17,048 nt of DNA from positions 1 to 17,048 of the forward strand of contig PFLZ01000027.1 in the NCBI GenBank assembly GCA_002784795.1. Direction: 5' to 3'. A program made the translations under genes and the position numbers. Source of the DNA: Candidatus Magasanikbacteria bacterium CG_4_10_14_0_8_um_filter_42_12 (GTDB lineage Bacteria > Patescibacteriota > Patescibacteriia > Magasanikbacterales > UBA922). Of the stretch, positions 1 through 16,629 are shown one piece after another. Below the pieces are notes generated by a model. It saw only the letters and a program-made list of their open reading frames with translations. It was not told the origin of the DNA and ran no database searches. Position 1 is the first letter of the stretch; every line of letters begins with the position of its first letter.

Positions 1-2
1 AA

Positions 3-455
3 ATGAGTATACAGAACTCCATAGCAGTCACCAATTACGGTTGTTATAGAGAACTGATACCCCGCCCCTCTGGGGCGGGGAGCTTCATTGATGTCCGTGT
101 TCATGTAAATGAACAAAATGACTTTGCAAATGCTCGAGGCTACGTACATATCAGCCCAGGCAAAGACGATATCACAGATCGACATGCACAAATGCTCGTC
201 CACGTAATAAAAGAAGGTGGAAGGTTTATGAACCAGCGAGATCTCTATGTCGCATGCATGGTCGCAGATGGAAAACTAGATTTTTATACGAGTACCTCTG
301 GAAAAGATCACGATCATCTCGCACCAAAACTTATTTTGGAAGAAGCTGGAGCTGTGGTTACCGATAGTGATGGTAATACGTGGGAACGAGGAAAAAGCGA
401 TATCATTGCTGCCAATCCTGTATTACACGAAAAAATTATTCAGTTATTGAAGTAG
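3..455 (+). CDS. Inositol-monophosphatase-family protein, C-terminal part (5' truncated by window edge)
   Basis: This is the C-terminal half of an inositol monophosphatase-like (FIG superfamily) Mg2+-dependent sugar/inositol phosphatase. Its last ~50 residues align closely with the complete paralogue just downstream: DHDHLAP matches DWDYLAP, LILEEAGAVVTD matches LIAEEAGAIVTN, and both end with a short helix. The metal-binding Asp residues of the C-terminal motif are kept. The N-terminal half, with the WVIDPIDGT motif, is not in the window. No stop precedes the ATG at position 3, so that ATG is probably internal and the gene starts upstream. A perfect GC hairpin at 60-80 adds roughly LIPRPSGAGS to the protein without breaking the frame. 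The gap to the next gene is 3 nt, so the two are probably co-transcribed. Substrate is unknown. Confidence 0.75.
   Translation: MSIQNSIAVTNYGCYRELIPRPSGAGSFIDVRVHVNEQNDFANARGYVHISPGKDDITDRHAQMLVHVIKEGGRFMNQRDLYVACMVADGKLDFYTSTSGKDHDHLAPKLILEEAGAVVTDSDGNTWERGKSDIIAANPVLHEKIIQLLK
60..80. repeat. GC-rich palindrome inserted in frame in the IMPase-like gene
   Basis: A perfect 9-bp inverted repeat (CCCCGCCCC / GGGGCGGGG) with a 3-nt TCT loop, followed by AGCTTCATT. It is far richer in GC than the surrounding gene and encodes Pro/Gly/Ser residues at a point where the downstream paralogue has no matching segment. Hairpins of this form resemble the ends of IS200/IS605-type elements, but that link is from general resemblance only. 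Confidence 0.7.
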
Positions 456-458
456 CAT

Positions 459-1244
459 ATGCAAGATTTTTTAAAACAAACAATACAAGAAGCTGGGGCT
501 ATTGCAAAAGGGTATTTTGACAATGGCGTCAAAAGTATCAAGACAAAATCAACCGTAGGGGATCTGGTGACAGAAGCAGATGTTGCGGTGAGTGATTTTA
601 TCGTAAAAAAGATACAAGACGCGTACCCAGAACATACTATTTTTTCAGAAGAAGTAGGAGAAAAAATCAATGAGGGAGGAACATATGAATGGGTCATCGA
701 TCCTATCGACGGTACGAGAAACTTTGCCAATGGAATTCCATTTTGGTGTACGATTATCGCAGTTGTGAGAAATGGTGAGACATGGCTAGGAGCGGTATAT
801 AATGCCATAAGTGGAGATTTATTTTTTGCAGAAAAAAGAAAAGGAGCTTTTCTCAACGATACAAAACTTTCTGTCAACAATACGCAATCGATTGATCAGG
901 CGTTTGGTGTGATGGTGCAGGCAAACAAAGCAGGAACCTATGGTGATCATATTGAGCGATTCCGTGTGTTGGCTATCAATCTGAATACCAAAACAGATTC
1001 ATGGGTCCACAACTATGGTACAATGTTGACAGTGTGTCATCTCGCATCTGGTGCCGTTGATTTTCAGGCAGGGAATGCTGGTCTTGATTGGGATTACCTT
1101 GCGCCATTTCTTATTGCCGAGGAAGCTGGTGCTATTGTGACAAATGGGTACGGTGAGCCGTGGACACGCGGACGACAAGATTATGTTATGGCAAATACAG
1201 ATCTTCATCCAAAAGTGATGCAATTGTTTGAAACGTATACATAA
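459..1244 (+). CDS. Inositol monophosphatase family protein
   Basis: A complete 261-residue member of the inositol monophosphatase/FIG superfamily, the usual length for the family. It hydrolyses a phosphate ester with Mg2+ in the cytosol; inositol-1-phosphate, histidinol phosphate and PAP are all possible substrates. Visible motifs are DLVTEAD (residues 35-41), the SEE metal ligands (63-65), the signature WVIDPIDGT (78-86) followed by NFANG, and the C-terminal metal motif GLDWDYLAP with D210/D212. It follows the truncated paralogue after 3 nt, so the pair looks like a tandem duplication read as one unit. There is no palindromic insertion here, which makes it a useful reference for the insertion in its neighbour. 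Family assignment is firm; the substrate cannot be read from sequence. Confidence 0.9.
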   Translation: MQDFLKQTIQEAGAIAKGYFDNGVKSIKTKSTVGDLVTEADVAVSDFIVKKIQDAYPEHTIFSEEVGEKINEGGTYEWVIDPIDGTRNFANGIPFWCTIIAVVRNGETWLGAVYNAISGDLFFAEKRKGAFLNDTKLSVNNTQSIDQAFGVMVQANKAGTYGDHIERFRVLAINLNTKTDSWVHNYGTMLTVCHLASGAVDFQAGNAGLDWDYLAPFLIAEEAGAIVTNGYGEPWTRGRQDYVMANTDLHPKVMQLFETYT

Positions 1245-1256
1245 ACATGTAAGATA

Positions 1257-1335
1257 GAACACGGATCACCATGATTTCCAAGATTATCCAAGATTGTATC
1301 CTGGTATATCTGGGAGATCCTGGAAATCTGTGTTC
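1257..1335. repeat. 79-bp intergenic element with terminal inverted repeats
   Basis: The stretch begins GAACACGGAT and ends ATCTGTGTTC, which are inverted copies of one another with one mismatch. The interior is itself semi-palindromic, with ATTTCCA near the left and TGGAAAT near the right, and several GAT/ATC-rich units. The ends share ACACGGAT / ATCTGTGT with the inverted repeats around the GxxExxY gene at 4724-5181, so it may be a gene-less relative of that cassette. No coding capacity. Confidence 0.6.
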
Positions 1336-1355
1336 AATCAGATGAAAAAGTATTT

Positions 1356-1442
1356 ATGGAAAAATATAATCCAAAAGAAATCGAAGCTAAGTGGCCCGTC
1401 TCCGCTAAAGCTACGCCGGGTAAACGAGTAAGTTATATTTAG
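1356..1442 (+). pseudogene. Remnant of a second, divergent leuS 5' end
   Basis: A 28-codon reading frame starting MEKYNPKEIEAKW, nearly the same as the start of the LeuRS that follows (MDKYNPKSIEQKW): 10 of 13 residues are identical, but only 27 of 39 bases, with many synonymous differences. After codon 13 the similarity stops abruptly and a palindromic repeat takes over (PVSAKATPGKR), followed by a TAG one base before the leuS ATG. The high synonymous divergence argues against a fresh duplication. It fits the leftover start of an older leuS allele replaced by the present one. It could still be translated as a leader peptide coupled to leuS, since stop and start are 1 nt apart. Confidence 0.65.
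1394..1420. repeat. Palindromic repeat inside the leuS remnant
   Basis: CCCG and CGGG ends enclose the core TCCGCTAAAGCTACG. The first 12 bases of this core recur in the in-frame insert of leuS at 3712-3723, indicating one repeat family present twice within about 2.3 kb. Confidence 0.55.
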
Positions 1443-1443
1443 T

Positions 1444-4400
1444 ATGGATAAATACAACCCAAAATCTATCGAGCAAAAATGGCAATCCTATTGGGAAGAG
1501 AACAAGACGTTCTCGACGCCAACGGATGCAACGTCAGAAAATAAATATTATATCTTGCCGCAACTGCCATATCCATCTGGCAGTGGGCTTCATGTTGGAC
1601 ACGCAGAGGTATATACCGCGTGTGATATTTACGCACGCTATCAGCGGATGAAAGGGAAGAAAGTTCTGCAAGTATTCGGACTGGATTCTTTTGGGCTTCC
1701 TGCAGAAAATTATGCGATCAAAACAAACGTGCATCCAAAAGAAACGATTGACCAGACCGGTGCAAATTTTGTTGAACAAGTAAAAAAACTTGGTGCTTCT
1801 GTCGACTGGGATAGATTTGTGCGTTCGAGTGATCCAGAGTATTACAAATTCACGCAATGGTTCTTCCTCCTCATGTACGAGCGAGGACTTGCATATAGAA
1901 AAACACAAGCCGTGAACTGGTGCGACAGTTGCAAGACCGTATTGGCAAACGCGCAAGTTGTTGACGGGCACTGTGAACGGTGTGATACTGTTGTGGTCCA
2001 AAAAGACATGGAACAGTGGTATTTGAAAATTACAGATTATGCAGAAAAATTGCTCGAAGGATTGGACAGAATTGACTGGCCAGAGGAGACGAAGAAACGT
2101 CAGAAGGATTGGATAGGAAAAAGCATGGGTGCCAGTATTGCATTTGATGTACTGGATGTGCGAAATACGAAAAGTACGAAAATACGAAATTCTGAAATCG
2201 AAGTATTCACCACTCGACCAGACACACTCTTTGGTGCGACGTACATGGTACTTGCACCAGAAGGTCAGTATGTGCAGGAATTGAAAGAAAACATTGAAAA
2301 TTGGGAAGACGTTGAATCCTACATAGTAGCAACATCAAAGAAAACAGAACTCGAGCGTCAGACAGAAAAAGAAAAAACAGGTGTAGAGGTTAAAGGTGTA
2401 AAAGCCGTCAATCCTGCCAATGGCGAAGAGATTCCTATTTGGGTTGCGGATTATGTCATTGCAACGTATGGAACGGGAGCTATCATGGCTGTCCCAGCGC
2501 ATGACGAGCGTGATTTTGAGTTTGCGAAGAAGTATAAATTGCCAATCAAGCAAGTAGTTGAATCAATTAAATACTATGTTTCTATCAATAAGGAAGAAAT
2601 AGACCTAAATGGATTATTTACAGAATTTTCATCAGATGATATTCAAGAATTTACTTATAATGGAAAATATACTTTGGAAGCTTATGATAAAAATTTGTTT
2701 ATTAAGGCTTTAAAAAAATATTCAAGACTTTCTTCTATATCTATTTTGAGTGGAGTTACTGAAAATATTGAAAATTGGTACAAAAAAGAAGAGGAAAAAG
2801 AAATTTTTTGTTATCCTAATTTTGGGATAAGTATCAATTCTGAATTTTTAAATCGTCTCACCACACAAGAAGCAAAAGAAAAAATGATCGACTGGCTCGA
2901 AGAACATAATGTAGGAAAACGAAAAATCCAATATAAACTTCGAGATTGGTCTGTGTCACGTCAGCGATTTTGGGGTGCGCCACTGCCGATGGTTGTCAAT
3001 GAACAATTATCAATAAGCAAAAAACAATATGTGTTTATTCATGGATATGGTGGTGATGCACAGTCCAACTTTTTTCCATGGATGAAACAAGAGCTTGAAG
3101 CAAAGGGACATACTGTTGTATTGCTGGATCTTCCAAATACGGATAAACCAAACGTAAAAGAACAAGCCGATTTTCTCAAAGAAAAGATTTCTTTTAACGA
3201 AAATACGGTGATTGTCGCGCATAGTCTTGGCGGTCCCGTCGCATTTCGTATTCTCGAAAATCTTGGTGCACCAATTGCAAAACTTATTCTTGCAGATCCA
3301 GTATTTCGTCCAGAGTTTAACGACGGAGAGCGATCCGATGTTACGGCAAGTGATTCCTTTGTATTTGATTTTGAAAAAATAAAAGCAAATGCTGACGCAA
3401 TTTCAATAATTTCAGATGCAAAGCATGTCACTATTAAAAAAGAACACATTGATGAACTGTCATCAATATTCAATGCAAGACATATAGAAGTTGATTTGTC
3501 TGAACGACATCTGATGGTTGCCGAGATTCCAGCACTTCTCGAAGAAGCCTTGATGACAGGTGTCAAACCTGTTCCGTTCTCAGATCTTCCTGTATTACTT
3601 CCAGAAGACGTAGATTTCAAACCAACTGGCCAGTCGCCACTGACGTATTCAAAAACATTCCAAGAAGGTGTCGAAGAAAAATATGGAAACGGCCCCTCCT
3701 CCGCTTCCACCTCCGCTAAAGCTTCGGCGGACGAGAAAGCTACGGCGGGCACGTGGAAAAGAGAAGTGAATACACTCGACACGTTCATGTGTTCATCATG
3801 GTATTTCTTTCGATATCTTGACCCACACAATGAAAAAGAATTTGCATCACCCGAAGCATTGAAAACATGGATGCCGGTAGATTTTTATCTCGGCGGACCA
3901 GAACATGTAAACGGGCATTTGTTGTATTCCAGATTTTTCACAAAAGTCTTGTTTGATGCTGGATATATTGATTTTGATGAACCATTTACCGTTCACCGCC
4001 ATCAGGGCCTCATTCTCGGACCAGACGGACGCAAGATGAGTAAGAGGTGGGGGAATGTCATCAATCCAAGTGATGTCGTCGATGTATACGGCGCAGACAC
4101 CATGCGTATGTACGAGATGTTCATGGGACCACTCGAAGATGATAAACCATGGGATGACGCCGGTGTACGCGGTGTGCGTCGTTTCTTAGATCGTGTGTGG
4201 AATCTCCAAGATGTTCTTGTAAAAGACGAAGAAATTGGTAATTTGAAATTAGAAATTGGGGACCTAGATAAAGAAACGCACAAAGTATTAAAGAAAGTCG
4301 GGGATGATTTGGCGACGTTAAACTTCAATACTGCAATTGCGAAGCTCATGGAGTTGACGAATGCATTCTACAAAGTAGAAAAAGTACCTATTACGAATTA

Positions 4401-4719
4401 CATATTACTTATTACGATGCTTGCTCCATTCGCGCCACACATGGCAGAAGAATTGTGGCAACTCCTCGGACATGATACGCAACTTGCGTTTGCTGAATGG
4501 CCACAGTACGACGAGAGCAAACTTGTCAGCGACACGATGACGATTGCTGTACAAGTGAATGGAAAAGTGCGCGCGACGATTGACATCGCTTCTGACGCGA
4601 GTGAAGATGATGTGAAGGCTACTGCGATGGCGGATGAAAATGTGAAAAAGTGGATGGGTGGAAATGAGCCGAAGAAGGTGATTTATGTGAAGGGGAAGAT
4701 TGTGAATGTAGTTGTGTAA
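1444..4719 (+). CDS. leuS: Leucyl-tRNA synthetase with inserted serine alpha/beta-hydrolase domain
   Basis: Charges tRNA-Leu with leucine (class Ia synthetase, cytosol). Visible parts: HVGH signature (50-53), a Zn finger with C160/C163/C177/C180, the editing-domain motif TTRPDTLFG (256-264), GAIMAVPAHDERD, RDWSVSRQRFWG (~500-511), LPVLLPEDVDF, DTFMCSSWYFFRY, the KMSKR form of KMSKS (864-868), and the usual C-terminal QVNGKVR domain. The usual length is about 800-880 residues; this one has 1091. Residues ~374-459 are an AT-rich insert before GISINSEF. Residues ~519-706, between GAPLP and KPVPFSDLP, form what looks like a whole RBBP9/YdeN-like serine hydrolase: VFIHGYGG, nucleophile S594 in AHSLGG, D658 and H689 as likely triad partners. 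Four short in-frame repeats add further residues. The frame is open throughout and all synthetase motifs are present, so it is probably functional. Confidence 0.93.
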   Translation: MDKYNPKSIEQKWQSYWEENKTFSTPTDATSENKYYILPQLPYPSGSGLHVGHAEVYTACDIYARYQRMKGKKVLQVFGLDSFGLPAENYAIKTNVHPKETIDQTGANFVEQVKKLGASVDWDRFVRSSDPEYYKFTQWFFLLMYERGLAYRKTQAVNWCDSCKTVLANAQVVDGHCERCDTVVVQKDMEQWYLKITDYAEKLLEGLDRIDWPEETKKRQKDWIGKSMGASIAFDVLDVRNTKSTKIRNSEIEVFTTRPDTLFGATYMVLAPEGQYVQELKENIENWEDVESYIVATSKKTELERQTEKEKTGVEVKGVKAVNPANGEEIPIWVADYVIATYGTGAIMAVPAHDERDFEFAKKYKLPIKQVVESIKYYVSINKEEIDLNGLFTEFSSDDIQEFTYNGKYTLEAYDKNLFIKALKKYSRLSSISILSGVTENIENWYKKEEEKEIFCYPNFGISINSEFLNRLTTQEAKEKMIDWLEEHNVGKRKIQYKLRDWSVSRQRFWGAPLPMVVNEQLSISKKQYVFIHGYGGDAQSNFFPWMKQELEAKGHTVVLLDLPNTDKPNVKEQADFLKEKISFNENTVIVAHSLGGPVAFRILENLGAPIAKLILADPVFRPEFNDGERSDVTASDSFVFDFEKIKANADAISIISDAKHVTIKKEHIDELSSIFNARHIEVDLSERHLMVAEIPALLEEALMTGVKPVPFSDLPVLLPEDVDFKPTGQSPLTYSKTFQEGVEEKYGNGPSSASTSAKASADEKATAGTWKREVNTLDTFMCSSWYFFRYLDPHNEKEFASPEALKTWMPVDFYLGGPEHVNGHLLYSRFFTKVLFDAGYIDFDEPFTVHRHQGLILGPDGRKMSKRWGNVINPSDVVDVYGADTMRMYEMFMGPLEDDKPWDDAGVRGVRRFLDRVWNLQDVLVKDEEIGNLKLEIGDLDKETHKVLKKVGDDLATLNFNTAIAKLMELTNAFYKVEKVPITNYILLITMLAPFAPHMAEELWQLLGHDTQLAFAEWPQYDESKLVSDTMTIAVQVNGKVRATIDIASDASEDDVKATAMADENVKKWMGGNEPKKVIYVKGKIVNVVV
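2161..2203 (+). repeat. CGAAA-type short tandem repeat in frame in leuS
   Basis: Irregular tandem units built on (A)CGAAA(A)TA, four copies, encoding RNTKSTKIRNSEIE (residues 240-253). It lies in the loop just before the VFTTRPDTLFG editing motif, where most LeuRS proteins have a short turn. Confidence 0.5.
2563..2820 (+). other. AT-rich insert segment within leuS
   Basis: Codons ~374-459 are much richer in A and T than the flanking leuS sequence, with long A and T runs and Asn/Lys/Ile/Tyr-rich translation. The segment lies after GLPIKQVV-type sequence in the editing region, before the conserved INSEF..L..EAKEKM motif. Typical synthetases have about 30-40 residues here, so at least part is extra. 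I do not recognise a known domain in it. Confidence 0.55.
3692..3754. repeat. GC-rich palindromic repeat in frame in leuS
   Basis: The core CCGCTAAAGCTTCGGCGG is imperfectly palindromic around AAGCTT and is followed by a similar half, GAAAGCTACGGCGGGC. It encodes the Ala/Ser/Lys-rich stretch SSASTSAKASADEKATAG (residues 752-769), at the loop where many LeuRS proteins carry a CxxC pair before the DTxDTF motif. Its first half matches the repeat at 1394-1420. Confidence 0.7.
4231..4260 (+). repeat. GAAATT(GG) tandem repeat in frame in leuS
   Basis: Three GAAATT units, two extended to GAAATTGG, encode EIGNLKLEIG (residues 930-939) in the linker between the KMSKS region and the anticodon-binding helices. 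Confidence 0.45.
4390..4417 (+). repeat. Heptamer tandem repeat (ATTACNN x4) in leuS
   Basis: Four uninterrupted 7-base units, ATTACGA, ATTACAT, ATTACTT and ATTACGA. Because 7 is not a multiple of 3, each unit is read in a different frame, giving ITNYILLIT (residues 983-991) just before the conserved LAPFAPHMAEELW helix. The hydrophobic translation suits a helix. Confidence 0.65.
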
Positions 4720-4723
4720 AATA

Positions 4724-5181
4724 GCACACGGATGACACGGATTGAATAGATTTTTTGTAGAATTTGTTCATGAAACATAAAGGAGTGACAGACAATATAT
4801 TAAAGGCCTATTACAATGTGTATAATACACTTGGTTTTGGCTTTCTCGAAAAGGTATATGAACATGCCCTTTTATTGGAACTTCAAAAAATGGGTTTACA
4901 TGCAGAAGCTCAATTTCCAATAATTGTTCATTATGATGGAAAAGAAGTTGGGCAATATTTTGCAGATATTATTGTTGGAAAAATTGTCATTTTAGAATTA
5001 AAAGCTGTTGATACGTTATCTGAAGAACATAGTTATCAACTTATAAATTATTTGAAAGCAACTGACATAGAAGTTGGCTTACTACTCAATTTTGGAAAAC
5101 GTCCCCAAGTAAAAAGAAAAATTTTTGATAATGAATATAAAAAATCCATTCAGATCCATTAAATCCGTGTCATCTGTGTGC
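4724..5181. mobile_element. GxxExxY cassette bounded by 20-bp inverted repeats
   Basis: GCACACGGATGACACGGATT at 4724-4743 is repeated in inverted orientation at 5162-5181 with 19 of 20 positions identical. The two ends enclose exactly one gene, the GxxExxY protein, whose stop codon is reached at the first bases of the right repeat. Inside both ends there are further degraded GGATT/GAT units. The element starts 5 bp after the leuS stop and finishes 1 bp before the comEC ATG, so it fills the whole space between these genes and probably replaced comEC's own leader. No transposase is encoded, so movement would have to be in trans or by recombination. No target-site duplication is evident by eye. 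Confidence 0.65.
4770..5162 (+). CDS. GxxExxY family protein (PD-(D/E)XK nuclease-like)
   Basis: A 130-residue protein of the GxxExxY family (PDDEXK_3). The naming motif is visible as GFLEKVY (24-30). The nuclease-like core is D66 (FADIIV) followed by E76-L-K78 (ILELKAVD), then a SYQLINYLK helix and the strand VGLLLNFG, all typical of the family. The biochemical role of the family is not established; a nuclease fold is predicted. I chose the ATG at 4770 over an in-frame TTG two codons earlier. The last residues (KKSIQIH) come from the repeat-like sequence at the right end of the cassette. It is in the same orientation as leuS and comEC. Full length with core residues intact, so it need not be decayed. 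Confidence 0.88.
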   Translation: MKHKGVTDNILKAYYNVYNTLGFGFLEKVYEHALLLELQKMGLHAEAQFPIIVHYDGKEVGQYFADIIVGKIVILELKAVDTLSEEHSYQLINYLKATDIEVGLLLNFGKRPQVKRKIFDNEYKKSIQIH

Positions 5182-5182
5182 T

Positions 5183-6682
5183 ATGTCTTTCAAGGAGGGT
5201 ATCAAAACAATCATCACTTCAAAAAGCAAACGCTTCCTCATCTACTGTTTTGGGTTTCTTTTCGGCGTTGCAGTCATGTCTGTCTTCGATATACAGATAG
5301 ACTTTTTGTATGTGTATAGCACATTGTTTGCTGCAATATTTTTTCTTATTATTTTCTGGAAGCAAAACACACTTCGATTTCTGTCATTCTTTTTTCTCGC
5401 ATGTATATTCGGTATTCTCCGATATCAGATAGCATTTCCACTCAGCTCGCACGATGTCAGTAGATACAATGGCAGAGAAATGGAACTCGTAGGATATGTT
5501 TCTGCAGAGCCGGATGTACGCATGGATGGCGTACGGTACATTGTTGCAGTCAATAAACAAGTAACAATAAGCAATACACAAAATCTTTCTGGACGTGTGT
5601 ATGTAAAGAGTGGTTTGTACCCGCGCTACAGTTATGGAGATAAGTTGCAACTGGTGTGTCAGCTGGAGGCGCCGGAACCTGTGGAGGATTTTGCATATGA
5701 CAAATATCTTGCTCGCTACGGCGTCTTTAGCATCTGTTCAGGAGCAAAGATAGATAAGATTGGCACTGGCGGTGGAAATGCGCTGTTTCGGGGCATTTTG
5801 GGGCTCAAGGAGGTAGTGGCAGAGAGGATCAACACGCTGTGGCACGAGCCGTATGCAAGTTTTATGGCCGGACTGCTGTATGGCTACCGCGGAGGGCTTG
5901 GGCAGCTCAATGAATTGTTTTCTCGAACAGGTGTCACGCATATTGTCGCAATTTCTGGATACAATATTACGCTCATTGCGACGCTCCTGATTACCTTTTG
6001 TATCAGTCTTGCTATTCCACGAAAAAAAGCGTTTTGGATTGTGGTATTTGGCATTATTGTCTTTCTTATTTTTGCTGGACTTTCTGCATCTGTGGTTCGT
6101 GCAGGAATCATGGGCATTCTTGTCCTCATCGCAAAACAGATGGGACGGATGTCGCGTATTGGCAATGTACTTGTGTTGACGGCTGTCATTATGACACTGC
6201 AAAATCCGTTTGTACTTATCTATGATGCAGGATTTCAATTGTCATTTCTTTCGACTGTTGGACTGGTGTATCTCGCACCAAACATAGAATCGTGGTTTTC
6301 TCGTGTACCAAAAGTACTTGGCTTGCAAGAATCAGTCGTCGCAACATTGTCTGCAACAATGATTACACTTCCGCTTATTTTATTTCAATTTGGGAGACTG
6401 TCACTCGTGTCATTGCCGGTCAACATGATTATTCTTTGGATTATTCCGTTTATTATGATGCTTGGCTTTTTTGCTGTTGTTGTGAGCATGCTGTTTTTGC
6501 CACTTGCACATATTCTTTCGTGGATCGCATGGGGTGGCATGATGTATATCGTCGGCATCGTTCGTTGGTTTGCAGATCTGTCGTTTGCTGCTGTTGACAT
6601 GCGGGTGCCAATTTGGGGAATGGTTGTTATGTATATTATGCTCACGTGGTTTGTCCTGAGAAAAAAGTCTTCCACACCTTAG
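5183..6682 (+). CDS. comEC: ComEC/Rec2-family competence membrane channel (without metallo-hydrolase domain)
   Basis: The inner-membrane channel of natural transformation, which passes single-stranded DNA into the cytosol. The 499 residues contain N-terminal membrane helices (~17-85), a soluble OB-like DUF4131 region (MELVGYVSAEPDV, ~95-170), and the Competence domain with GVTHIVAISGYNITLI (~249-264) and about eight more membrane helices (VVRAGIMG, NPFVLIYDAGFQLSFLST). Many ComEC proteins are 700-800 residues with a C-terminal metallo-beta-lactamase domain; here that domain is a separate gene at 7682. The ATG lies 1 bp after the right inverted repeat of the GxxExxY cassette. No Shine-Dalgarno site is visible upstream. 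Confidence 0.9.
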   Translation: MSFKEGIKTIITSKSKRFLIYCFGFLFGVAVMSVFDIQIDFLYVYSTLFAAIFFLIIFWKQNTLRFLSFFFLACIFGILRYQIAFPLSSHDVSRYNGREMELVGYVSAEPDVRMDGVRYIVAVNKQVTISNTQNLSGRVYVKSGLYPRYSYGDKLQLVCQLEAPEPVEDFAYDKYLARYGVFSICSGAKIDKIGTGGGNALFRGILGLKEVVAERINTLWHEPYASFMAGLLYGYRGGLGQLNELFSRTGVTHIVAISGYNITLIATLLITFCISLAIPRKKAFWIVVFGIIVFLIFAGLSASVVRAGIMGILVLIAKQMGRMSRIGNVLVLTAVIMTLQNPFVLIYDAGFQLSFLSTVGLVYLAPNIESWFSRVPKVLGLQESVVATLSATMITLPLILFQFGRLSLVSLPVNMIILWIIPFIMMLGFFAVVVSMLFLPLAHILSWIAWGGMMYIVGIVRWFADLSFAAVDMRVPIWGMVVMYIMLTWFVLRKKSSTP

Positions 6683-6720
6683 GTTTTGGAGGCATTTGAC
6701 GGGATAGGTTTTATTTGAGA

Positions 6721-6750
6721 CTATATTAGTGTTATTTACTTCTAATATAG
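6721..6750. promoter_or_regulatory. Inverted repeat in the leader of the lipoprotein gene
   Basis: CTATATTAG (6721-6729) and CTAATATAG (6742-6750) form a perfect 9-bp dyad with a 12-nt spacer, ending 7 bp before the lipoprotein ATG. TATATT within the left arm could be a -10 box, with TTGACG at 6696-6701 as a -35 box, though the 20-bp spacing is long. It could be a repressor site or a leader hairpin that occludes translation initiation. Confidence 0.45.
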
Positions 6751-6757
6751 AACATAT

Positions 6758-7420
6758 ATGAAGAAAATCCTCGGAGCATCAGCTGTGCTGTGCGCCCTTT
6801 TACTTGTTGGTGCAGGATGTGCGCCAGCTGCAGATGATTATTCTGCAACAGACGGAGACACAGACGATGGTGCTATGGTACAAGACGATGGGGGAGACAC
6901 AGGAGACACAATGGTAGCAGATGACAGCGCAATGGCTGGATCATTTGCAGATTGTCCTTCTGCAACAGAACTCGCAACACTCACATCTACAGATGCGTCT
7001 GTGGTAGAAGGTGGACCTTTTGACACAACAAGCTTCACGTTTGCAAAAGCAAAATGGGAAGGAAACAAACTCAACGTATATATTTCAAACGAAGACTACG
7101 CAGTATCAAAATTTGGTGCACTCGATAGTCCAGTCAAAGGTGCTGACAAAGGAACAGGTGTCTTGCAGATCAGATTTAGTAACGGTACAGAAAAAGCTGA
7201 CGTTGCTTCTTACAACCCTGCAGCTGGATACGGACAGCCACATTGGGTCACTGCAGAAATGCTCGTCCCAGTTGGACCTACAGCGACTGACGCACTCCTC
7301 AGTATGAGTAGTGGAAGTGCAGAAGTAGTTGCTATGGATGATACAAAAGTATGTGGAACATTTGACATGACAGGAAACAACAGTGCGGCAACAGGAGCAT
7401 TCGTTGCAACATTCAAATAA
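6758..7420 (+). CDS. Putative lipoprotein of unknown function
   Basis: A 220-residue exported protein. It starts with a lipoprotein signal peptide: MKK, a hydrophobic core, then the lipobox LVGAGC with the acylated Cys at 21. An Asp/Ala/Thr/Gly-rich, very acidic linker follows (~25-65), then a mainly beta-type globular part containing two Cys residues (in FADCPS and KVCGTF) that could form a disulfide. It ends in the strand-like TGAFVATFK. I do not recognise the globular domain. The gene sits between the two ComEC parts and is followed at once by a strong terminator, so it is probably a separate transcription unit. A surface role is likely from the signal; a link to DNA uptake is only suggested by position. 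Confidence 0.75.
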   Translation: MKKILGASAVLCALLLVGAGCAPAADDYSATDGDTDDGAMVQDDGGDTGDTMVADDSAMAGSFADCPSATELATLTSTDASVVEGGPFDTTSFTFAKAKWEGNKLNVYISNEDYAVSKFGALDSPVKGADKGTGVLQIRFSNGTEKADVASYNPAAGYGQPHWVTAEMLVPVGPTATDALLSMSSGSAEVVAMDDTKVCGTFDMTGNNSAATGAFVATFK

Positions 7421-7444
7421 CTTTTTTATGAAGGGGGGACACAC

Positions 7445-7480
7445 AAACACCACGGATATCCGTGGTGTTTTGTTTTTTGT
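7445..7480 (+). terminator. Rho-independent terminator after the lipoprotein gene
   Basis: A perfect palindrome with 13-base arms (AAACACCACGGAT / ATCCGTGGTGTTT) runs directly into the T-rich tract TTTTGTTTTTTGTTT. It lies 25 bp after the stop codon. Confidence 0.9.
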
Positions 7481-7492
7481 TTAGATAGCATG

Positions 7493-7554
7493 AGCCGGCG
7501 GACGCAAGGGCTTCCTAGTGATCGAGATGATCGGAAATCCTGCGTCCGTCGGCT
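7493..7554. repeat. GC-rich long hairpin, REP-like
   Basis: AGCCGGCGGACGCA (7493-7506) pairs with TGCGTCCGTCGGCT (7541-7554): a 14-base stem with a single mismatch that would be a G-U wobble in RNA. Inside, TTCC pairs with GGAA, and GATC-GAGAT-GATC forms a small inner hairpin. It is much richer in GC than the flanks. It may be a REP-type palindrome served by the transposase gene 1 kb downstream, or a structured RNA. It has no coding capacity. Confidence 0.55.
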
Positions 7555-7559
7555 GCAAT

Positions 7560-7630
7560 TGCGTGGCATTTGCCAAGAGGCGTAGGGAAACCCCCGCATT
7601 CCTCGCGCACTCACGGCATTCGCACACGCA
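7560..7630. other. Structured intergenic stretch, possible ncRNA or repeat
   Basis: Nested pairings are visible: TGCGTG (7560-7565) with CACGCA (7625-7630), GAGG (7577-7580) with CCTC (7601-7604), and GGG-AAA-CCC at the tip. The composition is GC-rich like the adjacent long hairpin. No tRNA T-loop, tmRNA, RNase P or SRP signature could be recognised. With the preceding hairpin it explains most of the 261-bp gap between the lipoprotein and the hydrolase gene. Confidence 0.4.
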
Positions 7631-7681
7631 TCTACTAGCCTATCACGACTTTCTTTTTATCGTCAAAATGACTCTGTGTAT

Positions 7682-8635
7682 ATGAAACAAGTGATCGTTT
7701 TCCTTTTCATTGTATTAGGTATCACCGTTGGTTTACGTGTGTATCTATCGTTGTCTGCTCCTGGAGTGTCAAATTCTTCGGATATTCAAATAGAAGAAGT
7801 GCAAGAGCCAACGCTCAAGATTACTTTTCTTGATATTGGTCAGGGGGATTCGACACTTGTAGAATTTTCCGATGGGCAGCAGATGCTTGTCGATTGTGCG
7901 ATTGATGATCGTGTGCTCGAAGCATTGGGACGCGTAATGCCGTTTTATGATCATGAGATAGAGTATCTTGTGGTGACGCATCCAGATCTTGATCACTATG
8001 GCGGATGTCTCGATGTGATGAAGCGATTAGATATTGGGCACATTCTCTACAATGGCATGGAAAAGCCATATGATGAACTCTGGCAATCGTTTCATGCAGA
8101 AGTACAAGCGCAGATGGCCGATGGAAAAGAATATATAGAAGTAGACGAACCTTTTGTGTGGGAGATTGCCAGCACGACAGTAAACGTCCTCTATCCAGAT
8201 CATTCTATACCACAAAATGATCATATCCCGGGATTAGAAAAAGACGTCGGTGCAAATGACACGTCCGTTGTTATCAAGCTGTCGTATGGAACACAGGACA
8301 TGCTGCTCATGGGAGATGCGGAAAAAGATTTGGAGGAATATTTGGTACAGACGTATGGCGAACAACTTGACGTAGAAGTACTGAAAATGGGACATCATGG
8401 CAGTCAGAGTTCTTCGAGTCAGGCATTTATCAACGCGACATCTCCAGAGGTTGCTATTGCTTCTTGCGGATTAAACAACAAGTTTGGCCATCCGTCCCCT
8501 CGCGTGCTAAAACGATTTGAGCGAGCGCATACTGATACGTTGCGAACAGATGTATCGGGTGATATTTTGTTGACTGTTTTTGAAGATCACTATGAAATAT
8601 CAACGCAATATGGAGATGGATCAGACAAACAGTAG
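7682..8635 (+). CDS. ComEC-type metallo-beta-lactamase domain protein, membrane-anchored or exported
   Basis: A 317-residue protein made of an N-terminal hydrophobic helix (~4-24) and the metallo-beta-lactamase-fold hydrolase that in many bacteria is the C-terminal domain of ComEC. Motifs: LKITFLDIGQGDSTLVEF (45-62), metal ligands in THPDLDHYGG (99-108), NDTSVVIKL followed by LLMGDAEKD, LKMGHHGSQSSSS, and GHPSPRVL near the end. In ComEC this domain is thought to degrade the non-transported DNA strand outside the membrane; the helix here would place it at the cell surface. I chose the ATG at 7682; a GTG two codons upstream is in frame. The last 20 nt overlap the transposase gene. The role in DNA uptake is inferred from family and from comEC 1 kb upstream. 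Confidence 0.87.
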   Translation: MKQVIVFLFIVLGITVGLRVYLSLSAPGVSNSSDIQIEEVQEPTLKITFLDIGQGDSTLVEFSDGQQMLVDCAIDDRVLEALGRVMPFYDHEIEYLVVTHPDLDHYGGCLDVMKRLDIGHILYNGMEKPYDELWQSFHAEVQAQMADGKEYIEVDEPFVWEIASTTVNVLYPDHSIPQNDHIPGLEKDVGANDTSVVIKLSYGTQDMLLMGDAEKDLEEYLVQTYGEQLDVEVLKMGHHGSQSSSSQAFINATSPEVAIASCGLNNKFGHPSPRVLKRFERAHTDTLRTDVSGDILLTVFEDHYEISTQYGDGSDKQ

Positions 8636-9263
8636 AAATCTGCATAGACCGCATCATATGTATGATGGACACACGTACTTTGTGACAGGGAGATGTATTG
8701 GAGCAAAACATTATTTTTATAATGAACAAAGAAAAAATATTTGGCGAAATGTGTGTAAGGAATCTATAGAACGATTTGGTATTAAGATGTATGCATGGGT
8801 ACTCCTTGAAAATCATTATCATATATTGTTTTCATTGCCATATAAAGAAGTTTGTACTGAGACAGATTTCGTGCCTCAATCTGTCACTCCACGCGATAGA
8901 AAAGAGAGGAGTGACGAAATGAGCGCAGCGAATTTCGTTTCGCAGCAAGATATACGTATTTTGGTTGAGTTTATTCGCAAAATTCATAAGGATTCTGCTA
9001 GAAAATTAAATCAACTCGACAACACCCCAGCCAGAAAAATATGGTATCAATATTACGATAGATGTATCAGGAATATTCCAGATTTTTGGAAGCACTTCAA
9101 TTATATTCTCAAAAATCCATACAAACATGGGTTGGTGGATTCCTTGGGTGCAAGTTTTGCATATATACACTCTAGTAATCCAACCTGGCTTTTCCGTTTT
9201 GGTGCCGATGGTCTTCATGAAGGATTTTGCAAATATCCTGTTGCTGAAGTAGCAGTAGAATGA
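8616..9263 (+). CDS. REP-associated tyrosine transposase (Y1, HUH family)
   Basis: A ~215-residue Y1 transposase of the IS200-like/RAYT type, which cuts and joins single-stranded DNA at hairpins. It has YDGHTYFVTGR at the start, the HUH-type motif as H-Y-H in ENHYHILFS, and the catalytic-Tyr helix in FNYILKNPYKHGLV. Between the HUH motif and the long helix there are about 27 residues (VPQSVTPRDRKERSDEMS..) coded by stacked palindromes. Four in-frame starts exist (TTG 8580, ATG 8592, 8610, 8616); I prefer 8616, which gives the usual short N-terminus and a 20-bp overlap with the hydrolase gene. RAYTs are usually single-copy domesticated genes that mobilise REP palindromes in trans. Confidence 0.85.
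   Translation: MDQTNSRNLHRPHHMYDGHTYFVTGRCIGAKHYFYNEQRKNIWRNVCKESIERFGIKMYAWVLLENHYHILFSLPYKEVCTETDFVPQSVTPRDRKERSDEMSAANFVSQQDIRILVEFIRKIHKDSARKLNQLDNTPARKIWYQYYDRCIRNIPDFWKHFNYILKNPYKHGLVDSLGASFAYIHSSNPTWLFRFGADGLHEGFCKYPVAEVAVE
8861..8938. repeat. Stacked palindromes inserted in frame in the transposase gene
   Basis: Three consecutive hairpins overlap end to end: GACAGATT (8861-8868) with AATCTGTC (8878-8885); GTCACTCC (8883-8890) with GGAGTGAC (8908-8915); and ACGAAAT (8914-8920) with ATTTCGT (8932-8938). The frame is kept. The last hairpin has the form CGAAATGAGCGCAGCGAATTTCG, related in style to the dispersed repeat at 16630-16711. Confidence 0.7.
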
Positions 9264-9269
9264 ATTATT

Positions 9270-9278
9270 TGCTATACT
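9270..9278 (+). promoter_or_regulatory. Candidate extended -10 promoter for the TSP3 protein gene
   Basis: TGCTATACT is a good extended -10 box (TGn plus TATACT), 35 bp before the ATG at 9314 and just after the transposase stop. No clear -35 box is seen at 17 bp spacing. Confidence 0.45.
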
Positions 9279-9313
9279 AAGCGCAGCTCATGTTGTTATC
9301 AGCTTATTAATCT

Positions 9314-10726
9314 ATGAAAAAAATTCTTTATTCAATTGCGCTGCTTTTTGCGTTTCCACTTGTCGCACATGCTGCCAATTTTACCTTTCTAGTAAACAAT
9401 AGCGTCTATCTTTCGGATGAGAATGCATTTGCGGGTGATACGGTAAAAGTATATACCGTCGTAGTGAATAATGATTTTCCTTCTTTCTCAGCAGATGTGA
9501 CGTTTTTTAACAACGGCGTACATATTGGTACGGCAGAAATTCGCAATCTTGCATTTGAACAAGCAAAGCAAGTATCTATTGATTACACACTTCCAGAGGG
9601 AGAAAATAAGATAGAAGCAAGAATGATTAACGTCTCTGTTCGAGATGAATCTGGATCCACAATAGAATTGTCCCAACAAGAACTCGCTGCATTTCAAGCA
9701 ACACGTTCTTTGAATATTGATGTTGATACTGATGGCGATAATACCGGCAATGCAGAGGATACCGATGATGACAATGATGGACTCTCTGACACAGACGAAG
9801 AAGCGCGCGGGACAAACTCTCTCAAAGCTGATTCTGATGGAGATAGTATTGATGATAAAAAAGAAGTTGATGGCGGTACAGATCCAACAAAAGCCGATAC
9901 TGATGGTGATGGTCATAATGACGGACAGGATCTTTTCCCAACAAATAAAGGTGAATGGTCTGATGTAGACGAAGATGGAACCGGTGATAATGCCGACACG
10001 GACGACGACAATGATGGCCTTTCAGACATCGATGAAGCAACCCTAGGGAGTGATCCTCTCAAAAAAGATACTGATGGTGATGGGATAGAAGATGGTGCAG
10101 AAAAAGAAGCTGGGACTGATCCAACGAATAAAGATACTGATGGTGATGGTATCAATGATAAAGAGGAAATAGACGGTGTTACCAATCCCACAAAGGCGGA
10201 TACCGATGACGATGGTATCAATGATAGAGAAGAAAGAAACAAAGGAACCGATCCAACAAACGCAGATACTGACGGTGATGGACTTTCAGACGGAGATGAA
10301 TTGAAAAAAGGAAGTGATCCGCTAAAAGCAGATACTGATGGAGACGGTGTAAACGATCTGCTTGATGCGTTTCCACTCGATGCTGCTGAATCAATCGATA
10401 CTGATCTCGATGGTATAGGCAACAATGTCGACGATGATGATGACAATGATGGCATTCTGGATGGAGACGAAGGATCATTTGGCACCGACCCACTAAAAAA
10501 TGATACTGATGGTGACGGGGTGAGTGATAAAACAGAGCAAGAAAAAGGAACCAATCCACTATTGGCAGACAGTGACGGTGATGGACGTATGGATGGAGAA
10601 GATAGTCGTCCACTTGCTGCCGATATGTTTGATTACAAGCGTATTATTCAGTGGGGTGCATTTGGGAGTTTGATATTGTTTATTGTGTTCATGAGTGTGT
10701 ATGCGTACAAACGCGAACGGTATTAA
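9314..10726 (+). CDS. Secreted, membrane-anchored protein with thrombospondin type 3 calcium-binding repeats
   Basis: A 470-residue surface protein. Residues 1-20 are a signal peptide (cleavage after AHA). Residues ~21-130 are a beta-rich domain (VKVYTVVVNND, EGENKIEARM) resembling Ig/CARDB-like folds. Residues ~134-432 hold about a dozen thrombospondin type 3 units of the form DTDGDGxxDxxExxxGTDPxxK, which bind Ca2+ through Asp side chains; some units are shortened or fused (DTDDDNDGLSD, DLFPTNKGEW). A single C-terminal membrane helix (~448-463) ends with positive residues YKRERY, so most of the chain would face outward. The next gene starts before this one stops, and it shares TSP3 units, so the two probably act together at the cell wall. 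Confidence 0.85.
   Translation: MKKILYSIALLFAFPLVAHAANFTFLVNNSVYLSDENAFAGDTVKVYTVVVNNDFPSFSADVTFFNNGVHIGTAEIRNLAFEQAKQVSIDYTLPEGENKIEARMINVSVRDESGSTIELSQQELAAFQATRSLNIDVDTDGDNTGNAEDTDDDNDGLSDTDEEARGTNSLKADSDGDSIDDKKEVDGGTDPTKADTDGDGHNDGQDLFPTNKGEWSDVDEDGTGDNADTDDDNDGLSDIDEATLGSDPLKKDTDGDGIEDGAEKEAGTDPTNKDTDGDGINDKEEIDGVTNPTKADTDDDGINDREERNKGTDPTNADTDGDGLSDGDELKKGSDPLKADTDGDGVNDLLDAFPLDAAESIDTDLDGIGNNVDDDDDNDGILDGDEGSFGTDPLKNDTDGDGVSDKTEQEKGTNPLLADSDGDGRMDGEDSRPLAADMFDYKRIIQWGAFGSLILFIVFMSVYAYKRERY
9715..10610 (+). repeat. Degenerate coding tandem repeats (TSP3 units)
   Basis: Repeated units of roughly 66-69 bp centred on GATACTGATGGTGATGG, coding for the Ca2+-binding TSP3 modules. Units differ at synonymous sites, so the array is old or under protein-level selection. 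Confidence 0.75.
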
Positions 10727-11480
10727 ATCTATCAATGGAGTAATCATTATGCTGGCGTGTCTCTTCGCGCCAGTCTTTGTGTATGCTGCTGATAGTGATA
10801 ATGATGGTCTCTCAGACGAGCAAGAAGCGATCTATCATACCGACCCAGCCAATCCTGATACAGATGGAGATGGCTATTTTGATGGTATAGAAGTCGCACA
10901 TGATTATTCTCCTCATCTCGCTGGTGGAAAACGTTTGAATGAAGATGATTTTGATCATGATGGACTGAATGATTGGCTCGAGAGGTGGTTTGGAAGTGAC
11001 ATGGGGAAAAGTGATACCGATGGAGACGGATTTTCAGATTATGATGAAGTCATGCGTGGATATTCTCCTGCTTCTACAACAAGTACGCAGGTATTTGTAC
11101 GAAAAGTTGTTGTAGACAGATCGCAACAACGATTGAATTTTTATGTAGATGGGGTAAAGATACACAATTTCCCTGCGTCGACTGGAAATCCAGGTACACC
11201 AACGCCAGACGGTGAATATCACATGATGCGAAAAGTGGCAAAAAAAAGCTATGTCGGACCTGGATATGATCTTCCTGGCGTTACCTGGAACGTTGAATTT
11301 TCTCCTATGTATTATATACATACTGCCTATTGGCACAATGATTTTGGCAAGCGCACACATAGCCATGGTTGCGTGAATTTGCGAGAAGATGATGCAAAGG
11401 TCATCTATGAGTATATAGACGAAACAGTGCCTATTGTGGTGACAGGAGAGACGCCGGCTGGGTATGTCGTAGGGACGTGA
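10701..11480 (+). CDS. L,D-transpeptidase (YkuD) with N-terminal TSP3 repeats
   Basis: A 259-residue exported peptidoglycan enzyme. The hydrophobic segment ~11-29 is a signal peptide or anchor. Residues ~31-120 contain three TSP3-type Ca2+-binding units (DSDNDGLSD, DTDGDGYFD, DFDHDGLND, DTDGDGFSD). Residues ~131-250 are an L,D-transpeptidase catalytic domain: KVVVDRSQQRLNFYVDG at its start, a PTPDGEY loop, H207 in IHTAYW, and the catalytic THSHGCVNL with C224. Such enzymes make 3-3 cross-links or attach proteins to peptidoglycan. The ATG at 10701 overlaps the end of the TSP3 protein gene by 26 bp, and the stop lies 1 bp before mutY, so translation is likely coupled. An attractive but unproven idea is that it attaches or modifies wall near its TSP3 partner. 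Confidence 0.88.
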   Translation: MRTNANGIKSINGVIIMLACLFAPVFVYAADSDNDGLSDEQEAIYHTDPANPDTDGDGYFDGIEVAHDYSPHLAGGKRLNEDDFDHDGLNDWLERWFGSDMGKSDTDGDGFSDYDEVMRGYSPASTTSTQVFVRKVVVDRSQQRLNFYVDGVKIHNFPASTGNPGTPTPDGEYHMMRKVAKKSYVGPGYDLPGVTWNVEFSPMYYIHTAYWHNDFGKRTHSHGCVNLREDDAKVIYEYIDETVPIVVTGETPAGYVVGT

Positions 11481-11481
11481 T

Positions 11482-12354
11482 ATGACAAAAAAACAAAAAC
11501 AACTTTGTATAGATATCCTCACGTGGTATCACAAAGAGGGAAGAAATTTGCCATGGCGGAAGACGAGAAATCCGTATCGTATTTTGGTTTCGGAAATTAT
11601 GTTGCAACAGACGCAAGTACCACGGGTGATAGAAAAATATAAAGAATTTCTTCGTGCCTTTCCTACCATCACCGCACTTGCCGAAGCAAAAACAGCAGAT
11701 GTCATTACTGTGTGGAAGGGACTTGGCTACAATAGACGAGCGTTGTTTTTGCAACGAACTGCGCAGGCAGTACAAAAAGAATTTCGTGGGAAATTTCCTC
11801 GAACACTGGAAGAACTGAAAACATTGCCGGGAGTGGGGGATTATACTGCACGAGCTATTCTCTCATTTGCATTTGACCAACCCACGCCTGTCCTCGACAC
11901 GAATCATAGAAAGTTTTACCAAAAAACATTTTTTGGAGATGAAATAAAAATTGATGCTGAACTGTTGAAGAAGGCTGAGGAAGTGATAGCGTTTATTGCA
12001 ACGATTTCTCTTGCTGAGATAACCCCCACCCAGCCTCCCCCTACTAGGGGGAGGGGTTCATTTTCTCTTATCTACCACTGGAATCAGGCACTCATGGACT
12101 GGGTGTCTGCAAATACAGAAAAGTATACATTGCCGAAAATCAAGAAAAAAAAGAAAGCTGTACCGTTCAAAGAGACCGATCGCTATTTTCGTGGCAGAAT
12201 TGTAGATGTGCTTCGGGAAGAAGGAAAGATCGGTATAGCTTCCTTACGAAAGTGCTATCCAGAAATATCGGATGAGCGTTTTGAGAAGATTGTCAAAAAA
12301 CTCGAAAAGGACCACTTGATTTTGCGTAAAAATCAGAGTATACTCCTCCCATAA
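11482..12354 (+). CDS. mutY: MutY-like A/G-specific adenine glycosylase without iron-sulfur cluster motif
   Basis: A 290-residue HhH-GPD DNA glycosylase, most like MutY, which removes adenine mispaired with 8-oxoguanine. It has LPWR (23-26), SEIMLQQTQV with catalytic E38, GLGYNRRA, the helix-hairpin-helix LPGVGDYTA (115-123) and PVLDTN with D139. Two things are unusual. The four-Cys Fe-S loop that normally follows NQALMD is replaced by WVSANTEKYTLPKIKKKKK, with no cysteines. The C-terminal NUDIX-like 8-oxoG sensor is absent; instead there is a ~60-residue winged-helix-like tail (YFRGRIVDVLREEG). A palindromic repeat adds TPTQPPPTRGRGS (181-193) just before the NQALMD helix. It could be a different HhH-GPD glycosylase with altered specificity. 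Confidence 0.82.
   Translation: MTKKQKQLCIDILTWYHKEGRNLPWRKTRNPYRILVSEIMLQQTQVPRVIEKYKEFLRAFPTITALAEAKTADVITVWKGLGYNRRALFLQRTAQAVQKEFRGKFPRTLEELKTLPGVGDYTARAILSFAFDQPTPVLDTNHRKFYQKTFFGDEIKIDAELLKKAEEVIAFIATISLAEITPTQPPPTRGRGSFSLIYHWNQALMDWVSANTEKYTLPKIKKKKKAVPFKETDRYFRGRIVDVLREEGKIGIASLRKCYPEISDERFEKIVKKLEKDHLILRKNQSILLP
12021..12058. repeat. CCCCCT/AGGGGG palindrome in frame in mutY
   Basis: Arms CCTCCCCCTA (12034-12043) and TAGGGGGAGG (12045-12054) are perfectly complementary around one base, with outer AACCCC and GGGGTT also paired. It resembles a dispersed repeat type seen in many bacterial genomes, usually between genes; here it is read as Pro/Thr/Arg/Gly. Confidence 0.75.
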
Positions 12355-12373
12355 GTACATATCATTATCTTTT

Positions 12374-12715
12374 ATGAAACTCCTTCTCAGATGGTTTCTC
12401 AATGCCCTCACACTCATCGCTATCGCATTTTATTTGCCAGGCGTCACTGTGAGTGGTATTTATGCAGCACTCATCACTGCGCTCGTACTCGGGCTGGTAA
12501 ATGCGGTTATTCGCCCAGTTCTGTTTGTCCTCACACTGCCTATCAATCTGCTCACACTGGGACTCTTTACCTTTGTGTTGAATGGATTGTTGTTTTGGTT
12601 TGTCGGTAGTGTGGTAAAAGGATTTGATGTTGCAGGGTTTTGGCCAGCATTCCTCGGGGCACTCATCTTGAGTCTTGTCAGTTGGCTCCTCGGGTGGACA
12701 CTCCGAAAAAATTAA
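12374..12715 (+). CDS. Phage holin family 4 (YvlD-like) membrane protein
   Basis: A 113-residue integral membrane protein matching the Phage_holin_4_2/YvlD family, which is widespread on bacterial chromosomes and despite its name is not usually part of a prophage. Four hydrophobic segments are visible: ~5-24, ~29-51, ~55-81 and ~87-109, with the family-typical LVNAVIRPVLFVLTLPINLLTLGLF in the middle. It starts 19 bp after mutY and lies upstream of a small basic protein and UMP kinase. There are no phage genes nearby, so a lysis role is unlikely; an envelope-related role is possible. Confidence 0.85.
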   Translation: MKLLLRWFLNALTLIAIAFYLPGVTVSGIYAALITALVLGLVNAVIRPVLFVLTLPINLLTLGLFTFVLNGLLFWFVGSVVKGFDVAGFWPAFLGALILSLVSWLLGWTLRKN

Positions 12716-12735
12716 TTAGACATAACCTATACTAT

Positions 12736-12915
12736 ATGAAAGGTGGCACAGTTCGTGTTGCAAAGGGGAAATCTTCATCACATGCACCACAGCAGGGTCG
12801 TGGTGGTTTTGGTTCACAAAAAAATACAGGATTTGGTGGACAAATGATGGGAAAGAAAAGTCTGGTTTCGAGACTAAAACAGGTGGAGAAAAAAGATGAA
12901 AAGAAAGAAAAATAA
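12736..12915 (+). CDS. Small basic Gly-rich protein, unknown function
   Basis: A 59-residue protein starting MKGGTVRVAKGK. The first 37 residues are rich in Gly, Gln, Ser and Lys (GRGGFGSQKNTGFGG) and look disordered; the last 20 form a Lys/Glu-rich helix (SLVSRLKQVEKKDEKK). It could bind nucleic acid or ribosomes, but no domain is recognised. The ATG at 12736 fits the spacing to the holin-like gene (20 bp); an in-frame frame extending upstream would overlap that gene and is unlikely. It ends 3 bp before UMP kinase, supporting co-transcription and reality of the gene. Confidence 0.6.
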   Translation: MKGGTVRVAKGKSSSHAPQQGRGGFGSQKNTGFGGQMMGKKSLVSRLKQVEKKDEKKEK

Positions 12916-12918
12916 CGT

Positions 12919-13608: not shown

Positions 13609-13672
13609 CTTCGATAAAAAAGAAAAAGAATCTCGCTATGTGGTTCTTTATTCATTACACAAGTTGTTTGTG

Positions 13673-14851: not shown

Positions 14852-14893
14852 ATTTTTTTATACTTATTTTTTGTACTCATAGTTTATCACAAA

Positions 14894-14926
14894 AGAAAAA
14901 GAGTAGCTATTTGCTACTCTTTTTCT
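14894..14926 (-). terminator. Rho-independent terminator between the CARDB-like and ClpC-like genes
   Basis: A perfect 14-base inverted repeat (AGAAAAAGAGTAGC / GCTACTCTTTTTCT) with a 5-nt loop, 17 bp past the stop of the CARDB-like gene. Read on the minus strand it runs into CTTTTTCTTTTG, as expected for termination. It separates the two minus-strand genes into different transcripts. Confidence 0.8.
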
Positions 14927-14943
14927 GGCATATTGTGTGCTTC

Positions 14944-16053: not shown

Positions 16054-16092
16054 ATTGTGTATTGAGTAAATAGTGAAGTGATACTTTAGTTA

Positions 16093-16619: not shown

Positions 16620-16629
16620 ATGTGTATTT

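Follow-up and report, generated by a model that had tools for sequence, protein, structure and literature searches.

The leucyl-tRNA synthetase (LeuRS) of a tiny uncultured bacterium, Candidatus Magasanikbacteria bacterium CG_4_10_14_0_8_um_filter_42_12 (order Magasanikbacterales), contains a complete serine alpha/beta-hydrolase. The embedded hydrolase is real, intact and recurrent, and its retention by selection within an otherwise intact LeuRS is supported by the sequence, the predicted fold and the dN/dS ratios. Domain gain by synthetases is known, but one would not expect an enzyme so central to translation to harbour an entire serine hydrolase that is kept by selection. The insertion region accommodates different enzyme families in turn, and the genomes concerned are among the smallest known. 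Many relatives likewise embed this hydrolase or other small enzymes in LeuRS, a pattern that hints at an additional, so far overlooked activity in a central step of translation.

A complete serine hydrolase inside LeuRS

The window, which is the whole stretch of DNA analysed, comprises 17,048 nt (contig PFLZ01000027.1 of assembly GCA_002784795.1, forward strand, positions 1 to 17,048). Its LeuRS gene, with the embedded enzyme, is located at 1444..4719 on the plus strand, as are all LeuRS features given below, and encodes 1091 aa. The original prediction held that the synthetase motifs were intact on both flanks of the insert and in the same frame. This was confirmed by the single open frame at 1444-4719 and by the score of the protein against the bacterial LeuRS model TIGR00396 (906.6 bits; curated cut-off 548.4). 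HIGH-like and KMSKS-like motifs and the whole synthetase fold were present. The CP1 editing domain was matched by Pfam at residues 221-382 (2104..2589), and its motifs TTRPDTLFGAT and AVPAHDERD were unbroken. The hydrolase insert spans residues 519-706 (2998..3561; profile match 3016-3558), and the LeuRS frame picks up again at TGVKPVPFSDLPVLLP (residues 705-720; 3556..3603). The full-length AF2 model had a pLDDT of 87.5 and a pTM of 0.83, with blocks of the hydrolase region at about 91-97.

That the approximately 190 embedded residues form a complete RBBP9/YdeN-like hydrolase, as had been proposed from motifs, was borne out by the agreement of Pfam, PDB sequences and the family profile. Residues 519-706, searched as a 188-aa piece, matched the alpha/beta-hydrolase families Abhydrolase_6 (5.3e-9), Abhydrolase_1 (5.9e-9) and Ser_hydrolase (9.6e-8), all above the cut-offs. 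The closest solved sequence was YdeN (1uxo, 6e-14), followed by RBBP9; the weak lower-ranked PDB sequence matches were judged to be due to chance. A search with a family profile gave YdeN at 1.7e-35 over 5-172 and RBBP9 at 2.1e-26. Since every match listed in the structure searches with the whole model was a synthetase, the hydrolase domain was modelled alone (AF2; pLDDT 96.6, pTM 0.93). The predicted model had the expected alpha/beta-hydrolase fold and matched RBBP9/YdeN (PF06821) structures across the full length. Both the nucleophile elbow HSxG and the catalytic His position of the family are present in the insert. Fold, profile, selection and the occurrence in independent genomes all support the call of the domain, as well as its being intact and embedded. 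An intein or homing origin of the insert was rejected, as Pfam matched no such family in the frame.

Bacillus subtilis YdeN (1uxo) and human RBBP9 (2qs9, 7oex) are free-standing, whereas the window domain lies inside a synthetase. The window LeuRS shares its whole fold, motifs and CP1 with T. thermophilus (2bte/1h3n) and E. coli LeuRS, but it adds the 188-aa enzyme in the CxxC-G turn and a 74-aa insert after CP1, and it has lost the Cys pair of that turn. The CP1 editing domain is itself an insertion. Judged by family, CP1 and the embedded hydrolase both have a hydrolase function near the synthetase core; the latter differs in fold and chemistry (serine nucleophile), and CP1 is still present in the window LeuRS. 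NCBIfam NF040702, by its name an IleRS with an N-acetyltransferase domain, likewise combines a class I synthetase with an extra enzyme domain, although both the synthetase and the enzyme are others.

Insertion sites and other embedded enzymes

To place the insertions, a reference profile was built from 17 LeuRS of the window's order that lack inserts. Compared with this profile, the window LeuRS has 183 additional residues at position 444 of the model, where they separate CEKC from G right after RDWxxSRQRxWGxPxP, and 74 additional residues at position 374, past the CP1 core. A census was made of 202 LeuRS rows, consisting of 52 proteins and 150 distinct frames, some of which are incomplete or overlap as copies of a single gene; neither the window's own protein (P0001) nor the ValRS P0050 was counted. 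The 272 inserts of at least 35 aa fell at positions 444 (92), 374 (90), 244 (79), 277 (5), 530 (5) and 651 (1). We refer to position 444 (the CxxC-G turn) as site A, 244 (near the CP1 start) as site B and 374 (the CP1 end) as site C. Mainly three loops around CP1 hold exchangeable enzymes in CPR LeuRS and in seven archaeal-titled records.

By profile, 169 of these inserts were hydrolases, 71 were Nudix-like (63 at position 374) and 3 were HAD-like; three matched two profiles and 32 matched none. The Nudix box was strict in 53/59 distinct Nudix inserts and loose in 3 more. Pfam scans assigned Ham1 to L061 and L065, a methyltransferase-like domain to L092, and both Nudix and HAD to L178. Other synthetases also carried several enzymes by Pfam: IleRS L133 (LMW-PTP, hydrolase, histidine phosphatase), IleRS L068 (hydrolase, Nudix, histidine phosphatase), ValRS L067 (HAD, hydrolase, histidine phosphatase) and ValRS L066 (HAD and Nudix, with a weak hydrolase match). 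A segment of 117 or 118 aa occurs at position 374 in L084, L105, L065, P0041, P0049 and P0051; Pfam scans of L105 and L065 gave no match to it.

Near-complete LeuRS frames of the same order, with matches in 57/57 genomes, ranged from about 805 to 1234 aa, several frames of this survey ending at contig ends. All frame lengths were taken from stop to stop and so somewhat overstate the proteins. The control ranges exclude cut frames: IleRS, 48 frames of 951-1037 aa plus two of 1104 and 1176 aa (matches in 53/54 genomes); AlaRS, 589-792 aa with three above 710 (53/54); and EF-G, 692-758 aa (52/54). Four frames met in the IleRS search and taken as ValRS measured 1082-1207 aa.

Catalytic residues

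S594 of AHSLGG (3223..3225) and H689 (3508..3510) had been named as nucleophile and catalytic histidine, and conservation upheld both assignments. At site A, Ser was found in 68/68 copies and His in 66/68, the other two being gaps. The Ser column was likewise filled by Ser in 64/64 site-B copies and 29/29 free-standing homologues, and His occurred in every embedded or free copy whose column is filled. The choice of D658 (3415..3417) as the acid held in part. D/E was present there in 54/68 site-A copies, but the usual acid column of the family lies three columns later (H661 in the window); there, Asp was found in 29/29 free-standing homologues and D/E in 60/64 site-B and only 17/68 site-A copies. 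Therefore, D658 is probably the acid, judging from the alignment, yet shifted from the family column. Two of the 68 site-A copies had D/E at neither acid column, one of them from missing sequence. In the model, D658 is the final residue of predicted strand 653-658, a position compatible with a catalytic acid.

The motif FxDxxR, which includes D627 (3322..3324), was common in embedded copies and less so in free ones. The D627 column contained D/E in 62/68 site-A copies, D in 40/64 site-B copies and D/E in 11/29 free copies, and this residue is a possible anchor for a substrate alpha-amine.

Distribution of the embedded hydrolase

A survey of CPR LeuRS had been proposed. The embedded hydrolase recurs across CPR and in some archaeal-titled records; it occupies three different sites of LeuRS and is also carried by further class I synthetases, which extends beyond what had been seen in the window. 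In the window's order, 59/86 genomes matched the hydrolase profile at 1e-6, and 33/86 had the hydrolase in a frame of at least 600 aa, all 33 being LeuRS; in a set of 57 genomes of the order, 24 had it inside LeuRS. The phylum sample gave matches at 1e-10 in 131/286 genomes, free copies included. An insert-restricted search with LeuRS-sized candidates yielded 54 protein clusters, all of which show LeuRS features in Pfam lists or alignments except P0050. The 80 named loci kept from 215 relatives comprised 59 LeuRS, 1 IleRS and 20 short frames. Seven of the 59 LeuRS loci were archaeal-titled (DPANN or unplaced: L082, L086, L094, L105, L128, L134, L136), and these LeuRS resemble the bacterial type.

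Further hosts were ValRS (P0050, L066, L067), IleRS (L068, L133) and a 392-aa frame (L069). With the exception of L064, the hydrolase-bearing frames above 600 aa that were examined all encode LeuRS, ValRS or IleRS, which are class I synthetases. In L064:3408-6383, the hydrolase sits between two regions matching glycosyltransferase models. The hydrolase-bearing LeuRS frame L093:3-7274 is 2424 aa long from stop to stop. The same LeuRS site as in the window carries the hydrolase in other genomes, among them Magasanikbacteria CG1_02_41_34 (L071), UBA12086 and GW2011_GWE2_42_7; as these are independent genomes, an assembly chimera was rejected.

When only the window domain served as query, a single homologue (P0055) emerged from 229 candidates, and a profile search for free relatives found 1923 at E<=1e-10 among 8000 scored. 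P0055 (299 aa, on short contigs, the longest of 1465 bases) is an RBBP9-like hydrolase followed by a tRNA-binding domain like the MetRS C-terminus. PF01588 was in none of the 120 listed among the 1923 profile matches, indicating that P0055 is a single case. Titles and abstract beginnings of the open-licence papers retrieved yielded no description of such synthetase inserts. Archaeal-type TyrRS/TrpRS in CPR have been described (PMC5370408) and differ from the embedded hydrolase.

Selection and evolution

The dN/dS ratios were taken from three pairs with dS <1 in both parts; many other pairs were near saturation and were not used. The hydrolase and the LeuRS body gave 0.12 and 0.11 for the window versus L071, 0.21 and 0.13 for the window versus L070, and 0.11 and 0.16 for L070 versus L071. 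The hydrolase is thus under purifying selection equal or close to that of the LeuRS body.

Trees were built with FastTree or were quick trees, from a row set enriched for insert carriers. On the hydrolase tree, the 68 site-A rows almost formed one group: they required 5 changes, of which at least 2 fell on starred branches, compared with 6 for site B and 3 for free copies; all labels together required 13, against the least possible 6. The ValRS and IleRS copies were scattered on this tree, which together with the change counts indicates several captures. The LeuRS body tree, with the CP1 region removed, required 17 changes for site A (at least 10 on starred branches), 13 for site B (likewise at least 10) and 35 for Nudix. 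Hydrolase and body distances agreed weakly (Mantel r 0.20 for site A, n=51, 1/2000 permutations as high; r 0.23 for site B, n=51, 0/2000). One ancient insertion with simple descent was rejected, because the body tree demands many gains or losses and the distances agree weakly.

The CP1 region of LeuRS is mosaic. Cargo differs between close bodies: L158 is without and L173 with a Nudix insert at 91% body identity, and the 95% identical bodies of P0034 and P0038 have CP1 domains that are 33% identical. Among LeuRS, CP1 comes in several markedly divergent forms (P0034/P0038, L011, L017, L052, L040, L164, L169).

Possible functions of the embedded hydrolase

The amino acids of LeuRS, IleRS, ValRS and MetRS are hydrophobic and are carried on tRNA as esters. 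Valacyclovir is the valyl ester of a nucleoside analogue. A title cited in PMC7730578 names RBBP9 as a valacyclovir-activating enzyme. Published work on RBBP9 (PMC8866121) describes an aminopeptidase preferring aromatic residues, which forms adducts with single hydrophobic residues (Leu/Ile, Phe, Tyr, Trp) and needs a free alpha-amine; its authors regard amide, ester or thioester bonds as possible targets of cleavage. Given these adducts and the amine requirement, an extra aminoacyl-ester hydrolase is chemically sensible, and an extra editing or deacylation role is compatible with the published chemistry. Since the synthetases concerned handle hydrophobic aminoacyl esters, we ranked aminoacyl-ester hydrolysis first, narrowly. 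The Leu/Val/Ile host range, the fusion partner in P0055, the invariant Ser and His where the column is filled and the purifying selection also speak for this choice. Our best explanation, which we hold tentatively and at somewhat below an even chance, is that the selected embedded hydrolase acts as an auxiliary aminoacyl-ester hydrolase. By sequence and predicted fold, the RBBP9/YdeN-type enzyme sits as a folded domain in the CxxC-G turn adjoining CP1. In the proposed mechanism, by analogy with RBBP9, S594 would form an acyl-enzyme, and the domain would cleave ester or amide bonds to release hydrophobic amino acids whose alpha-amine is free. It may thereby deacylate wrongly made or stray aminoacyl esters at the synthetase, beside an intact CP1, with mischarged tRNA and aminoacyl-adenylate by-products as candidate targets. 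Here, we infer the cis action, the tRNA contact and the substrate. Were the hydrolase to act on aminoacyl-tRNA as a deacylase, it would provide another proofreading site, one that works through serine chemistry. The column aligned by eye to RBBP9 Glu108, its amine anchor, is not conserved, and this counts against the favoured role.

Replacement of a lost CP1 site was rejected as a rule, because the CP1 motifs were unbroken in most of the hydrolase-bearing LeuRS listed. Furthermore, altered CP1 was seen both with and without the hydrolase among the LeuRS listed, so there is no pattern of replacement. With the CP1 editing motifs intact, the hydrolase would add to editing rather than replace it.

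A housekeeping enzyme, such as an aminopeptidase or metabolite esterase, might also work in LeuRS as if it were alone, lodged in a tolerant loop of the synthetase in a streamlined genome. We consider this plausible and close behind the favoured role, because such proteins also house enzymes of unrelated families (Nudix, HAD, Ham1, methyltransferase-like, histidine phosphatase and LMW-PTP) and because a free copy might stand in for an embedded one. Free relatives are plentiful, as evidenced by the 1923 profile matches, and a genome with the embedded domain seldom has a close free copy as well. A free RBBP9-like gene was found in 1/33 genomes with the embedded domain versus 14/53 others (Fisher p 0.007), counting matches of at least 50 bits in frames below 300 aa with a cut-off chosen post hoc and uncorrected for kinship. 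A looser count of every short match at 1e-6, in which the added matches were mostly of 28-44 bits in frames of about 240-280 aa, gave 10/33 versus 26/53 and was not significant (p 0.12). Some phylum genomes, e.g. G123 and G141, have both free and embedded kinds. The rarity of close free copies suggests a function that does not need LeuRS, and the pattern looks as if the same job had been relocated into LeuRS. Together with the unrelated families in the same loops, it cuts against a specific editing role. However, insertion in the order concentrates in LeuRS (24/57), the lengths of IleRS, AlaRS and EF-G varying less, and the inserted families are mostly hydrolases rather than random proteins. 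If this housekeeping reading is true, it shows how streamlined genomes house enzymes. A wider and rather doubtful proposal is that the CP1 loops of LeuRS and some IleRS/ValRS loops, in CPR and some DPANN, are exchange sites for small hydrolase cassettes (RBBP9-type, Nudix, HAD, Ham1, histidine phosphatase, LMW-PTP), which would act at the synthetase on aminoacyl or nucleotidyl compounds as an added layer of proofreading or self-protection and turn over faster than the synthetase.

It is unlikely, though consistent with the patchy mosaic distribution (17 changes for site A and 35 for Nudix on the body tree) and with the different CP1 of the close bodies P0034/P0038, that the embedded enzymes confer immunity by destroying toxins or antibiotics that mimic aminoacyl-nucleotides at the target synthetase, exchange being driven by an arms race. 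Toxins that target LeuRS are known from entry titles (agrocin 84 moiety, 3zgz; AgnB2 LeuRS, 5ah5), and this explanation, if true, points to toxins aimed at LeuRS; however, the frequency of exchange may reflect ordinary CPR recombination, repeated loss or uneven sampling. Amino-acid scavenging is presumed in CPR bacteria, and an aminopeptidase beside the synthetase could release hydrophobic residues from scavenged peptides for local use. RBBP9 is indeed an aminopeptidase (PMC8866121), but its preference for aromatic residues, and Nudix and HAD inserts, which do not fit, make such feeding very improbable. The least probable reading, to which we give hardly any weight, is a dead or assembly-born insert with no enzymatic function. 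The off-column acid, the low model confidence of the nearby 74-aa insert and of a repeat-derived loop, and the early end of the same-genus frame L070 (819 aa) are in its favour, whereas the independent genomes, the invariant Ser and His where the column is filled, the hydrolase dN/dS of 0.11-0.21 and D/E at the shifted column in 54/68 copies argue against it.

Other features of the window

The 74-aa second insert (2578..2799) is AT-rich (26-27% GC) and has a low-confidence fold, with pLDDT mostly <60. A Pfam scan of it gave no match. It lies in the loop where relatives carry Nudix or HAD and resembles, by eye, a 77-aa insert in L184/L010. A near-palindromic 20-mer occurs at 3712-3731 and 1401-1420 of the window; five places in the genome match it with at most 3 mismatches, and the reversed control gave 0. 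One copy falls in the DNA encoding the low-confidence SSASTSAKASADEKATAG loop of LeuRS. The adjacent frames 3-455 and 459-1244, within 3-1244 of the window, appear by eye to be tandem relatives of inositol monophosphatase.
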